Below are positions 327 to 5,680 of a stretch of 20,794 bases of DNA, one piece after another. The notes below the pieces were generated by a model, which was not told where the DNA came from, ran no database searches, and saw only the letters and a program-made list of their open reading frames with translations. Position numbers and translations under genes: made by a program. This DNA is from a virus. The stretch covers positions 1-20,794 of the IMG/VR virus record IMGVR_UViG_3300021957_000399; one strand, written 5' to 3'. Each line of letters begins with the position of its first letter. Within the stretch, counting starts at the first letter, position 1.

Positions 327-896
327 ATGAATTTGAAAGAACTAACGTGGGAAAACCACAAAAGCGCAGAACGTAAAAAATTTGCAAGTGTGTTGATGAG
401 TGGTAAGATCACTCCTGAATTATACTATCGATACCTTACTAATCAGTTTTACATGTATAATATCTTAGAGGCAAGATTACGTAATCTCGCACCTGAGTTA
501 GGATCGACTGACGTGTTTCGTGCAGAAGCAATTAGATGCGATATGCAGGAACTAGAAGAAGAACACGGGTTTGTATTCGACCCAAGACAACTATCTACTG
601 TCACATCTGAATACGCAAATCATATTGAAAATCTAATGTTGAACGAAGACGTTGATGGTCTTATCGCACACATGTATGTACGTCACTTTGGTGATATGTA
701 TGGTGGTGCAATGATCGCTAAACGTGTTCCTGGTTCAGGCAAAATGTATCAGTTTGAAGACAAAGAAGATTTGAAGGTACATCTGAGAGGCTTACTCAAT
801 GACGATATGGCAGATGAGGCCAATAGATGTTTCGAATATGCAATTAGACTATTTGAGGAGTTAGGCGATTATGCAAGTCTGGGATCATCTGATTAG
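327..896 (+). CDS. hox: Heme oxygenase (biliverdin-forming), phage-encoded
   Basis: Predicted to open heme to biliverdin IXalpha, CO and Fe(II), using O2 and electrons probably supplied by host ferredoxin; cytosolic. The 189-aa protein has the family's two hallmarks. The proximal heme-ligand region HKSAE (His11, Ala14, Glu15) corresponds to the HxxAE motif of HO-1-type enzymes. The distal-helix motif RHFGDMYGGAMIAK (residues 119-132, with Asp123, Gly126 and Gly127) corresponds to the GD-x-SGG motif. It is shorter than most bacterial and plant enzymes (about 210-240 aa). The bilin reductase gene starts inside its 3' end (26-nt overlap), so product and consumer enzymes are probably translationally coupled. 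A GGGA-type ribosome site lies about 8 nt before ATG 327. No promoter is obvious just upstream, so transcription probably enters from the gene before. Family identity is secure; the activity is inferred. Confidence 0.9.
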   Translation: MNLKELTWENHKSAERKKFASVLMSGKITPELYYRYLTNQFYMYNILEARLRNLAPELGSTDVFRAEAIRCDMQELEEEHGFVFDPRQLSTVTSEYANHIENLMLNEDVDGLIAHMYVRHFGDMYGGAMIAKRVPGSGKMYQFEDKEDLKVHLRGLLNDDMADEANRCFEYAIRLFEELGDYASLGSSD

Positions 897-1557
897 TCTT
901 CAAGATTACTTTATAAGTGAGTTTGAAGATGATGGAGTTGAAGTATTTGAAGAAGGCATGGAGAGATTCAATCAAGAAGGTTGGGTCAATCGTGTTTGGA
1001 AAAGCACATCGTATCGTAGAGCCCACGTAGATGTAGTAGATGCACGTAAAGAGAAGAACTTGTGGATGATGCACGTATGCATTTTTCCTCACATTACTTC
1101 AGATGCCCCTATCTTTGGCTTCGATGTTATATGTGGACCCAATAAGATGACTGGAGCATTTCATGACTTTAGTCCTACAACAAATCAAACTCACCCAATG
1201 ATCGATCACTTCGGCAAGACTGTTGAACAACTAGAGTGGAAAAGAGAACGTGAACTGCCTGATTGGGCAAAAGCTATCTTCTCTGGTTCTATGATGGCCG
1301 CAGGTAATGTACGAGAAGATACTGAAATAAATCAAGTGAGATACACTGTAGAGAATACGTTACAGTACTATCTTGATAACGTAGGAAACTATTCTGGTAA
1401 CTCAGATGAGTCATTGGTGATAGAAGCACAGAACAACTATGCACACTATCAGAAACAGAATCCTCACACACCTAGAGTCATGAAATCTATCGGACTCGAC
1501 CCAGACGATGTTGATGCATTTGTGCAACACTGTCTATTTCCTGAAATAAAAACTTGA
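871..1557 (+). CDS. pcyX: Ferredoxin-dependent bilin reductase, PcyX-like
   Basis: A 228-aa member of the PcyA/PebS/PcyX family, which reduces biliverdin with ferredoxin electrons. Characteristic segments are the MMHVCIFP strand (residues 66-73), PIFGFDVICGP (80-90), FHDFSPT (97-103) and the C-terminal HTPRVMKSIGLDPDDVD helix. Aligned by eye to Synechocystis PcyA, the catalytic His88 and Asp105 correspond to His68 and Asp85 here, whereas Glu76 appears to be Asp54. Loss of that Glu argues against the PcyA reaction (phycocyanobilin). Viral PcyX enzymes are known to make phycoerythrobilin, so that is the likeliest product. The ATG at 871 has GAGGAG 11-16 nt upstream inside the heme oxygenase gene; the next in-frame Met would remove about 30 residues. 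The stop TGA lies inside the -35 hexamer of the tmRNA promoter. Family certain; PcyX subtype and product inferred. Confidence 0.85.
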   Translation: MQVWDHLISLQDYFISEFEDDGVEVFEEGMERFNQEGWVNRVWKSTSYRRAHVDVVDARKEKNLWMMHVCIFPHITSDAPIFGFDVICGPNKMTGAFHDFSPTTNQTHPMIDHFGKTVEQLEWKRERELPDWAKAIFSGSMMAAGNVREDTEINQVRYTVENTLQYYLDNVGNYSGNSDESLVIEAQNNYAHYQKQNPHTPRVMKSIGLDPDDVDAFVQHCLFPEIKT

Positions 1558-2471: not shown

Positions 2472-3437
2472 ATGGAAATGTTGACACTATGGAGCGCAGT
2501 AGGGTTCCTCTTTGCCGCTTATGCGGTAATCGCAAATGATTCAGTGCAGACGCTCGGCACTTGGATGGCATCTAACAATGAGCGTTTCAACTACAAGACG
2601 TTATGGGCAGCCGCAAGTGCTGTACTACTAGCAACGCTTTGGTATGGTTGGTCAGTGAATGGCGGTGATATTAGTTACGGTCGATTGAATAAGATTCCCT
2701 GGCAAGAAGTTCAGTGGTATCATGCCGCAGCCCCAGCCATTCTTGTTGCACTGACTAGACTTGGTGTGCCTGTATCTACTTCATTCTTGGTCTTATCAGT
2801 ATTTGCTTCAACTTTCGTGTTGGAGAAAATGCTTATGAAATCGATAATGGGTTACGGTGTAGCCGCAGGTTTTGCTTACGCAGTATGGTTTGCTATTACT
2901 AAGTATGCGGGTCACTGGTTCGATGAGACACAGCCCGTAACTGAAGATAACAAAAAGTATTGGCGTATTGCTCAATGGTTTGCAACTGGTGGATTGTGGT
3001 GGACTTGGTTATCACATGACATGGCAAACATTGCAGTATTCTTGCCACGTGTAGTTCCCGTAGACTTGATGATCATGGTCTCTGTTGTGTTCGTAGCAGG
3101 GCTGTTCTTCATGTTTAGAGAACGTGGTGGTAAGATCCAACAGATCGTACTAGAGAAGCATAACACTCGTTATGTCCGAAGCGCAACGCTGATCGATCTG
3201 TTCTACTGGCTATGCCTATACTTCTTCAAAGAACTCAATGACATTCCTATGTCTACTACTTGGGTCTTTGTTGGTTTATTAGCAGGACGTGAACTCGCAA
3301 TGGCTACGTACTTTGGCAAGAAGAAGTCTAAGTCTGTATTCCCATTAGTTGCTAAAGACTTTGGCAAGATGATGGTTGGACTTGGCGCATCTGTTGCTCT
3401 AGTATTGCTAGTGCATTATGTGATAAATCCTGTCTAA
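2472..3437 (+). CDS. PiT/Pho4-family inorganic phosphate permease
   Basis: A 321-aa hydrophobic protein with about eight or more membrane segments, probably a host inner-membrane phosphate importer. It shows the duplicated layout of the PiT (PHO4) family. Each half has a GxND-like motif, ANDSVQTLGT (21-30) and SHDMANIAVF (181-190), and each has a P-x-STT-like motif, PVSTSF (100-105) and PMSTTW (259-264). It is shorter than bacterial PitA (about 500 aa) and lacks the long central loop; a short hydrophilic loop lies near residues 150-165. The second GxND motif is degenerate (SHDMAN). Ribosome site AAAGGAG is 9-15 nt before the ATG. A good terminator lies upstream and a promoter for the next genes lies just after the stop, so it is transcriptionally separate. 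Cation coupling (Na+ or H+) cannot be told. Confidence 0.75.
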   Translation: MEMLTLWSAVGFLFAAYAVIANDSVQTLGTWMASNNERFNYKTLWAAASAVLLATLWYGWSVNGGDISYGRLNKIPWQEVQWYHAAAPAILVALTRLGVPVSTSFLVLSVFASTFVLEKMLMKSIMGYGVAAGFAYAVWFAITKYAGHWFDETQPVTEDNKKYWRIAQWFATGGLWWTWLSHDMANIAVFLPRVVPVDLMIMVSVVFVAGLFFMFRERGGKIQQIVLEKHNTRYVRSATLIDLFYWLCLYFFKELNDIPMSTTWVFVGLLAGRELAMATYFGKKKSKSVFPLVAKDFGKMMVGLGASVALVLLVHYVINPV

Positions 3438-3443
3438 AAGTTC

Positions 3444-3472
3444 TTGACAACCGTGCTTACTTCTGTTATACT
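3444..3472 (+). promoter_or_regulatory. Sigma70-like promoter for the small ORF at 3507
   Basis: TTGACA (3444-3449), 17-nt spacer, TATACT (3467-3472). It lies right after the permease stop and 35 nt before the GTG start of the next gene. Confidence 0.8.
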
Positions 3473-3713: not shown

Positions 3714-3885
3714 GTTTCCTGGTGTAAGGGGAAACACATTTGGTCTTGACATCCGAGACAATATAGTGTATATTAGTGATAATAAGATAACAAATAGTTC
3801 TGCCGAGACGCAACTCTTTCTCTATGCGTATCGTATGGGCAGAGATCACAAAAAAATGGAGATAAGGGACACACTAAACATATGA
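3706..3885 (+). CDS. Short hypothetical protein (59 aa) between the 3507 gene and gene 33
   Basis: This frame is below the usual size cut-off but fits perfectly. Its ATG (3706) overlaps the previous stop by 8 nt, and its TGA overlaps the gp33 start as ATGA (3882-3885), so translation of all three genes looks coupled. The product begins MTEFPGVRGNTFGLDIRDN and continues with a short strand-turn-strand (NIVYISDNKI) and a helix with LFLYAYRMGRDHKK. No family is recognised. A sigma70-like promoter (3746-3774) lies inside it and would serve gp33 and gp59 alone. Confidence 0.7.
   Translation: MTEFPGVRGNTFGLDIRDNIVYISDNKITNSSAETQLFLYAYRMGRDHKKMEIRDTLNI
3746..3774 (+). promoter_or_regulatory. Internal sigma70-like promoter ahead of genes 33-59
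   Basis: TTGACA (3746-3751), 17-nt spacer, TATATT (3769-3774), inside the 59-aa ORF. Predicted start near 3781, about 100 nt before gp33. Confidence 0.75.
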
Positions 3886-4103
3886 AAGAAATAAGCACTG
3901 AAAATATCGTCAAAGAGATACAGTCATTTATTGATAAGGGTGTTCCATATATTGATGCAGTTGTTGAGTATGCAGAGAAGAACGAAGTTGAGATCGAAGT
4001 AATCGGTCAGATGATTAGGTCTTCTCCTATCTTGAAAGCAAAGATACAGTACGAAGCAGAGGAGCTAAATATGATGGACAAGACGGACAGGTTGCCAGTA
4101 TGA
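3882..4103 (+). CDS. 33: gp33, late-transcription co-activator
   Basis: In T4, gp33 bridges the host RNA polymerase beta-flap and the gp45 sliding clamp, so that late promoters fire from replicating DNA. This 73-aa protein matches marine T4-like gp33 in length and pattern. An N-terminal helix (VKEIQSFIDKG) is followed by the conserved-looking YIDAVVEYAEKNEVEIEVI segment (residues 23-41) and the helix LKAKIQYEAEELNMMDK. It ends RLPV, a hydrophobic tip in the place of the clamp-binding tail. T4 gp33 is longer (112 aa). The position directly before gp59 and gp32 is the T4 order. Its start overlaps the previous stop (ATGA) and its stop overlaps the gp59 start (ATGA). Identity rests on pattern plus synteny. 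Confidence 0.85.
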   Translation: MKEISTENIVKEIQSFIDKGVPYIDAVVEYAEKNEVEIEVIGQMIRSSPILKAKIQYEAEELNMMDKTDRLPV

Positions 4104-4696
4104 GTTTGTATAGTACACGTGATGCATTTGATACCTATGTGTGCTATCTAGCTATGAAACGGCACTTTACATCCACTTACGACTTCTTCAAATATAACGG
4201 CAAGGTGAATGCCAAGTCAGATGCATTTGAGAATCGTAAAGACAAATTTTTCTTCTACAAGTTGTCTAAAAAGAGAGACGCTAAAAACTTTCTATTAGCC
4301 AACATCATAGTGAACCCGAATGTCTGGGCGGGTGAACTTGTAGATGATAAAGCAGAAACCATTTATACTGAATGGTCGAAGCGAAAACAGGCACTGACGT
4401 ATCAGTTCAAATCTGATATAAATGAATTGGAAGATGACTTCAACTCTAACTTTTTAGTTGAGAACGGTCAGCATCCAAGAATGTTGAAACTTTATATGAT
4501 GAACAGAATTAGCCTCGAGACGCTTGTGATATTGTGCGAACTGACTGGCTGTCTATCACATTGGGAAAAGAGTATCAAAGATACCATAGTTTTTCCTGAT
4601 ATAAATAGATTAGTCAAGAAGTATTCGCCCTTTATTGAATATGAAAAAAGCAAAATGAAGCAAATTCTACTTGACAAATACAACGCAATAGTGTAA
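4100..4696 (+). CDS. 59: gp59, loader of the gp41 replicative helicase
   Basis: A 198-aa protein (T4: 217 aa). gp59 binds forks and D-loops, interacts with gp32 and places the gp41 helicase on DNA, which permits recombination-dependent replication. The N-terminal half carries the family's typical run: DAFDTYVCYLAMKRHF (8-23), DFFKYNGKVNAKSDAFENRK (28-47) and DKFFFYKLSKKRDAKNF (48-64), rich in aromatic and basic residues for DNA contact. The C-terminal half is helical and includes HPRMLKLYMMNRISLETLVIL. It overlaps gp33 by 4 nt. The gp32 promoter lies in its last codons (LDK encoded by CTTGACAAA). The synteny 33-59-32 is that of T4. Identity is secure. Confidence 0.92.
   Translation: MSLYSTRDAFDTYVCYLAMKRHFTSTYDFFKYNGKVNAKSDAFENRKDKFFFYKLSKKRDAKNFLLANIIVNPNVWAGELVDDKAETIYTEWSKRKQALTYQFKSDINELEDDFNSNFLVENGQHPRMLKLYMMNRISLETLVILCELTGCLSHWEKSIKDTIVFPDINRLVKKYSPFIEYEKSKMKQILLDKYNAIV
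4600..4607 (+). promoter_or_regulatory. Possible T4-type late promoter box upstream of gene 32
   Basis: Exact TATAAATA inside gp59, 135 nt before the gp32 start and in the right orientation. A few exact octamers are expected by chance in 21 kb of AT-rich DNA, so the call is tentative. Confidence 0.35.
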
Positions 4697-4741: not shown

Positions 4742-5680
4742 ATGACTACATCTTTCGCAGCCCTAAAGCAGGCACGTTCAAATTCCTTTGACAAGTTGAA
4801 TTCTCAACTTCAAAAATTGAACAATGCATCCCCTTCACAAAACGATGACTACTGGAAACTAGAGGTCGATAAAGCAGGCAATGGCTATGCTATTATTCGG
4901 TTTCTACCAGCCCCCAACGGTGAAGACCTGCCCTTTGTTCGTGTCTTTGATCACGGCTTTCAAGGACCAGGTGGTTGGTACATCGAAAACTCATTGACAA
5001 CAATTGGTCAGGATGACCCTGTCTCTGAGCATAACTCTCAACTGTGGAACTCAGGCTCTGATGCCAACAAAGAGATTGCACGTAAGCAGAAGCGTAGGCT
5101 TTCTTACCATGCAAACATCTATGTGGTAAAAGACCCAACGAATCCTCAGAATGAGGGCAAAGTTTTCTTGTACAAATTCGGCAAGAAAATCTTTGACAAG
5201 TTGAATGCGGCAATGAACCCAGAGTTCGAGGATGAAACACCCATCAATCCTTTTGACTTTTGGGAAGGCGCTAACTTCAAGCTGAAGTGTCGTAATGGCG
5301 ACGGTGGGTACCGTACATACGAACCTTCATCTTTTGACGAAGTATCGCCACTTCTAACTGATGACGATGCACTAGAAGGTGTATGGAAGTCTGAGAAGTC
5401 GCTTCAAGATATCATCGATCCTAAAAACTTCAAGTCTTATTCAGAACTCAAAGCAAAGCTTTACAAAGTTCTGGCACTTGATGGCGGCTCACACGCACCC
5501 ACGACTAAAGCCGAGGACGATGATGTGGAGATGAATTTCACTCCTAAGTTTGAGGAGCGTTCAGCTCCCGCTCAGGCAGAGGCTTCATCTCCTACTATGG
5601 CAGAAGAGTCGTTCAAAGCTCCATCATCCACGGATGACGATGACGACCTTGATTTCTTCAAGGGTCTAGCTAACGACTAG
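4742..5680 (+). CDS. 32: gp32, single-stranded DNA-binding protein
   Basis: Coats single-stranded DNA in replication, recombination and repair and organises gp59/gp41 and the polymerase. The 312-aa protein (T4: 301) has all three regions. The basic N-terminus for cooperativity contains FAALKQARSNSFDKL. The OB core spans roughly residues 35-250, with HGFQGPGGWYIEN (71-83) and ARKQKRRLSYHANIYVV (113-129). The acidic C-tail ends DDDDDLDFFKGLAND, the docking site for partner proteins. In T4 the core holds zinc through one His and three Cys. Here His71 remains, but the Cys positions read Ser84 and the PVSEHN stretch, so the zinc site is gone, as I recall for cyanophage gp32. It has its own promoter, a good ribosome site and a strong terminator, consistent with high expression. 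Confidence 0.96.
   Translation: MTTSFAALKQARSNSFDKLNSQLQKLNNASPSQNDDYWKLEVDKAGNGYAIIRFLPAPNGEDLPFVRVFDHGFQGPGGWYIENSLTTIGQDDPVSEHNSQLWNSGSDANKEIARKQKRRLSYHANIYVVKDPTNPQNEGKVFLYKFGKKIFDKLNAAMNPEFEDETPINPFDFWEGANFKLKCRNGDGGYRTYEPSSFDEVSPLLTDDDALEGVWKSEKSLQDIIDPKNFKSYSELKAKLYKVLALDGGSHAPTTKAEDDDVEMNFTPKFEERSAPAQAEASSPTMAEESFKAPSSTDDDDDLDFFKGLAND

Follow-up and report, generated by a model that had tools for sequence, protein, structure and literature searches.

The window, by which is meant the whole 20,794-base IMG/VR record IMGVR_UViG_3300021957_000399, is a 20.8-kb viral fragment. It carries, in order, a heme oxygenase gene (hox), a ferredoxin-dependent bilin reductase gene (pcyX), a tmRNA, a small secreted-looking protein, a membrane protein and the T4-type genes gp33, gp59 and gp32, with tail and baseplate genes farther on. 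The hox gene (327–896, + strand) encodes 189 residues and matches the Pfam Heme_oxygenase family above its curated cut-off (PF01126, 8.6e-17) as well as human HO-2 (6.7e-11). Alignment with the human enzyme reveals both hallmarks of a heme oxygenase, the proximal histidine (His11) and the distal GDxxGG helix (G122-D123-x-x-G126-G127). All 47 aligned heme oxygenases, human HO-2 included, share H11, E15, Y44, D72, Y96, H115, G126 and G127; D123 is kept in 46 of them.

The pcyX gene (871–1557, + strand) encodes a predicted phycoerythrobilin synthase of 228 residues that belongs to the Fe_bilin_red family (PF05996, 4.3e-22; 79.3 bits against a cut-off of 31). Its best match among solved structures is PcyX EBK42635 (PDB 5owg, 1e-72), the best PcyA coming next at 1.7e-12. 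The NCBIfam PcyA model scores highest, yet far under its own cut-off, and the PebA- and PebB-type models score much lower, as the kinship of PcyX with PcyA would lead one to expect. A maximum-likelihood tree sampled PcyA, PebS and PcyX, leaving out PebA, PebB and alphaproteobacterial PcyA; in it the reductase joins a clade with 5owg, the phage Mosig enzyme and other viral sequences (support 98/96), apart from PebS and from the cyanobacterial and cyanophage PcyA, which form a clade of their own. The diagnostic residues are D54, H68, D85 and N197. PcyA His88 and Asp105 have their counterparts in H68 and D85, while D54 is found in all PcyX rows at a position where all PcyA rows have E (Glu76), and corresponds to Asp55 of EBK42635 if the first aligned Met of 5owg is residue 1. 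Asp55 is a PcyX-specific catalytic residue (PMC11480375), and Glu76 is missing from PcyX (PMC10151467). The preliminary description had read the pair as a heme oxygenase and a PcyX-like reductase, probably making phycoerythrobilin, and had asked for a phylogeny. The Pfam families, the 5owg match, the clade and D54 all agree with it, and a placement with PebS or PcyA did not occur. Judged from its sequence, the reductase is a PcyX and not a PcyA or PebS, and phycoerythrobilin is its predicted product. Such product calls can fail, since a freshwater phage enzyme called PcyA/X proved to be a true PcyA (PMC11480375); that enzyme, however, is without the aspartate that the window PcyX has at D54.

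The two reading frames overlap by 26 nt (871–896), as had been noticed earlier, and overlap likewise in 50 of the 63 loci holding both. A ribosome-binding-like GAGGAG motif (855–860, + strand), read directly from the sequence, lies within hox 10 nt before the pcyX start, and translation of the two genes is probably coupled. A T4 late promoter before hox was considered and rejected: the window has just GATAAATA there, and at that position the exact word TATAAATA is present solely in contigs L009 and L011. As this word is not conserved, late expression is not claimed. Near-identical pairs occur in independent viral contigs (L001, pcyX 100%; L002, hox 99% and pcyX 98%). Between the window and L002, hox differs by 15 synonymous and 2 nonsynonymous changes (dS 0.144, dN 0.004) and pcyX by 24 and 4 (dS 0.201, dN 0.007; dN/dS about 0.03). 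The remaining close pairs also have dN well under dS, save where differences are too few to judge (the window and L001). With dN so far below dS, hox and pcyX are selected genes rather than chance reading frames, and both are under strong purifying selection. The catalytic residues are intact in both, and this selection makes inactive enzymes, the other objection raised at the outset, unlikely.

Directly 3′ of pcyX lies a permuted, two-piece tmRNA of alphaproteobacterial type (1590–1910, + strand). That it is real, as first proposed, follows from its matches to RF04321 (1590–1865, 103.8 bits) and RF01849 (1550–1910, 93.1 bits); ARAGORN places it at 1560–1956. Its parts are complete: acceptor strands at 1642–1648 and 1735–1741 with a G3:U70 pair, ACCA at 1649–1652, and the tag ANDNFAHGDYALAA with its stop at 1821–1865. 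In the folded RNA the acceptor stem and the intervening hairpin both form. The tmRNA is served by a sigma-70-type promoter, TTGACA-17 nt-TATAAA (1554–1582, + strand), an exact match and the sole one in the window; none is established for hox-pcyX. The −10 element falls inside TATAAATA (1577–1584), a T4 late-promoter word, which occurs six times in the window against 1.5 expected, and the same arrangement is found in L001, L008, L009, L011, L014, L015 and L016. More TTGACA-17 nt sites resembling this promoter stand by gene starts at 3444, 3746 and 4671; the total of promoter-like sites in the window is not above that of shuffles. RF01849 matches above its cut-off in 263 of the 289 genomes from the class to which a MAG titled Rickettsiales belongs; of 14 controls, Caulobacter alone does so.

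ARAGORN or Rfam detects a tmRNA on the downstream side of pcyX in the window and in L001, L003, L005, L008–L012 and L014–L017, and upstream of hox in L048 and L051–L053; none was detected by these tools in L013 and L019. When 30 viral contigs were fetched by the tag pattern (5 of them already in the first contig set), pcyX stood upstream of the tmRNA in 19, and the other 11 end at most about 1.1 kb upstream. The conserved adjacency of hox-pcyX and tmRNA may be unreported, since a literature search, reaching few subscription papers, found no prior mention of a T4-like phage tmRNA with a heme oxygenase. In L008 (2897–3441) the long intervening segment of the permuted tmRNA contains a hydrophobic, TTG-start reading frame of 117 residues (2972–3325) that has no Pfam match and is possibly a gene inside the tmRNA gene.

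The T4-type affiliation proposed in the preliminary description is well founded. Pfam and phrog matches identify a gp33-like late-transcription coactivator (3882–4103, + strand; PF16805, 2.4e-11; phrog_254), a gp59-like helicase loader (4100–4696, + strand; PF08993, 5.6e-15; phrog_269, 1.3e-53), a gp32-like single-strand DNA-binding protein (4742–5680, + strand; PF08804, 6e-45; phrog_224, 9e-120), a DNA end protector, a tail tube and a baseplate wedge. The virus is T4-like, as judged from this partial genome. Between the tmRNA and gp33, a 129-residue product (1921–2310, + strand) with a signal-peptide-like N-terminus read from the sequence is secreted or outer-membrane-like and has no Pfam family above cut-off, and a polytopic membrane protein (2472–3437, + strand), found in 7 PcyX loci, has no Pfam match but shows by eye the NDS and PVST motifs of a putative PiT-type phosphate transporter. 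The order hox, pcyX, tmRNA, gp33, gp59, gp32 is repeated across many viral contigs and is therefore a lineage trait. The upstream flank of the pair in L002 (2288–7688) encodes CsgG, a FecR-domain protein, CsgA-like proteins and a CHASE2-guanylate cyclase protein. SAR11 myophages are known to carry curli genes. The cyclase attracts attention since heme oxygenase makes CO; no heme-binding part was seen in it.

More widely, the viral scan confirmed 126 relatives in viral contigs, with hox near pcyX in 63 of the loci examined. PcyX was not found in plasmids, and the bacterial genome collection, scanned with two conserved peptide patterns that distant relatives could escape, yielded five MAG contigs only (L113–L117). 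Four of these, L114–L117, have Hsp20, ClpS and hox in the order known from viral contigs and are taken to be phage DNA, while the remaining one, L113, is a fragment of 3.3 kb. At L116 (6913–7968) a carbon-nitrogen hydrolase family gene separates hox from pcyX, and L117 has a related gene. At the loci L056–L080 pcyX at first seemed to stand without hox. Those drawn carry alaS just upstream of pcyX, and whole-contig searches of five such contigs found hox elsewhere in 2, in one of them interrupted by an internal stop, and did not find it in the other 3. Further phage groups carry either Hsp20-ClpS-hox-pcyX or 5-aminolevulinate synthase with pcyX. The former arrangement is seen at L018 (7879–9537) and similar loci of a second phage group. 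Very large viral contigs also hold hox-pcyX, namely L040 (251 kb) and L044 (382 kb, the largest with PcyX).

With a probability of roughly 85%, the window contains a phage hox-pcyX cassette of the kind already described, predicted to perform the reactions from heme to phycoerythrobilin. Hox, whose activity like that of PcyX is predicted from family and residues, would open heme to biliverdin IXalpha, releasing CO and Fe(II); PcyX, with reduced ferredoxin, would then convert biliverdin to 15,16-dihydrobiliverdin and on to phycoerythrobilin. The two enzymes would probably be made together from their overlapping genes, and ferredoxin would be supplied by the host. Among PcyX phages a Fer2 ferredoxin was found in Mosig only, the window and its relatives being mostly fragments.

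Why should a phage whose host does not photosynthesize encode the route to phycoerythrobilin, a pink, light-harvesting pigment? This is an acknowledged puzzle, and the literature leaves the purpose of hox-pcyX open (PMC11480375). We rank first, tentatively, a role in steering heme and tetrapyrrole flux during infection (flux control), through disposal of released heme, return of iron and formation of a redox-active bilin; iron supply and a photoreceptor chromophore come next, all with low confidence. Two findings count for flux control: the Fer2 ferredoxin carried by Mosig, and the 5-aminolevulinate synthase in the same cluster in other PcyX phages. That synthase bears also on iron scavenging, in which iron freed by the pair from host heme would go to enzymes of the phage or of the host, with PcyX merely removing biliverdin. 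A role of this cassette in iron supply has already been suggested (PMC11480375), and the Mosig pair comes after several annotated 2OG-Fe(II) oxygenases. The synthase, however, would boost heme production and use up iron, the window holds no further iron genes, and scavenging of heme or iron by itself leaves unexplained both a reductase after the heme oxygenase and the companion synthase of other phages, all of which renders this purpose rather doubtful.

A chromophore role, in which phycoerythrobilin or an intermediate would reset host signalling once loaded onto a photoreceptor of the host, such as a phytochrome or a bilin-binding globin, is unlikely, although the enzymes of phage CB_2 can load the phytochrome Cph1 in E. 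coli and heterotrophs have bilin-binding globins (PMC11480375; PMC10151467). The acceptor need not be phage-encoded. The domain survey covered GAF, CpeT and Fer2, with phycobiliprotein and PHY domains outside it. It found no GAF protein and no CpeT lyase in 22 PcyX-phage records, mostly fragments (21 viral contigs including the window, plus the complete Mosig), while control genomes matched in both searches; of two MAGs also taken into the GAF search, one has GAF genes. The cyanophage P-SSM7, by contrast, has cpeT beside pcyA. Moreover, hox alone would give biliverdin, the very chromophore used by the phytochromes of non-photosynthetic bacteria. The survey thus narrows the options by weakening phage-encoded light-harvesting or phytochrome use. 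Among the purposes first listed (heme or iron scavenging, a light-sensor chromophore, redox relief, CO/Fe signalling), the light sensor loses ground in its phage-encoded form, and with a host acceptor it stays a rival.

It is quite improbable that the pair serves to remove heme freed as the phage tags host proteins or feeds them to Clp proteases, even though hox-pcyX adjoins a tmRNA in the T4-like group and, in another phage group, Hsp20 and ClpS, an adaptor of Clp. These are just two neighborhoods, each inherited within its lineage, and the adjacency may be chance; in addition, the tmRNA has its own promoter, and in Mosig it lies about 71 kb from hox-pcyX. Still more improbable is the stricter proposal that hox-pcyX and tmRNA would form one functional module, turning heme released by protein breakdown during takeover into iron and phycoerythrobilin, with the Hsp20-ClpS-hox-pcyX order of an unrelated phage group as its second version.

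The host is probably an alphaproteobacterium, to judge from these sequences. A non-cyanobacterial host, as suggested in the preliminary description, is supported by the PcyX tree and residues, the type of the tmRNA, and gp6, which is closest to Sinorhizobium T4-like phages (40% identity, against 32% for Mosig and 30% for HTVC008M). SAR11, the host given there as an example, remains unproven and finds no support: GC content is 40%, against 33% at the Mosig locus, and gp6, the core gene compared, is not nearest to the SAR11 phages HTVC008M and Mosig. Nor does the tmRNA single out a particular host, as had been hoped. Naming a host from the tag was tried and abandoned, the tag pattern being present in no genome of the scanned bacterial collection and in 31 viral contigs. 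The tmRNA type is no proof of an alphaproteobacterial host either, because phage Melnitz carries such a tmRNA and yet infects the gammaproteobacterial OM43 (PMC9004378). A cyanobacterial host with a reductase of PcyA or PebS type, the former making phycocyanobilin and the latter a cyanophage enzyme, fits the T4-like context and the gp32 gene (nearest a marine single-cell virus at 56% and cyanophages at 55%), but is extremely improbable given the tree and residues, the mere 25–28% identity to cyanophage PcyA, the tmRNA type, the gp6 affinity and a window in which no photosynthesis gene was seen.

The non-cyanobacterial hox-pcyX cassette favored here has known counterparts. Earlier work has described PcyX, viral hox-pcyX cassettes, the occurrence of such a cassette in a SAR11 phage, and phage tmRNAs in two pieces (PMC11480375; PMC9004378). 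PcyX was itself defined from viral metagenomes of the ocean, the source that the preliminary description had mentioned, and besides uncultured phages a single SAR11 phage, Mosig, is known to have the pathway. PcyX EBK42635, from uncultured oceanic viruses, is of the same subfamily, shares D54/Asp55, H68, D85 and N197-P198, and was also described from cassettes with heme oxygenase; about half of its residues are identical, and it comes from another phage lineage with other neighbors. The hemO-pcyA/X-valaS cassettes of aquatic phages likewise combine heme oxygenase and reductase in phages of non-cyanobacterial hosts (PMC11480375), but no alaS occurs in the window, nor in the 9 kb that L002 shows upstream. 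Melnitz and Mosig are T4-like phages with a complete, permuted, alphaproteobacterial-type ssrA (PMC9004378); the window tmRNA differs in its tag and its direct pcyX neighbor, and a glutamine riboswitch was not found in the window by Rfam. Closest in plan is Pelagibacter phage Mosig EXVC030M, with overlapping hox and reductase genes, a T4-type genome and a permuted tmRNA. Its PcyX is 51% and its Hox 36% identical, its pair is set between a 2OG-Fe(II) oxygenase and neck genes, and its distant tmRNA encodes the tag GEDNFALAA. A Mosig gene near the pair (L082, 4354–5124), annotated "putative ferrochelatase," has no Pfam match at 0.1, and the annotation looks doubtful. The lineage of the window represents a second T4-like setting for hox-pcyX, distinct from that of Mosig and with a fixed gene order.
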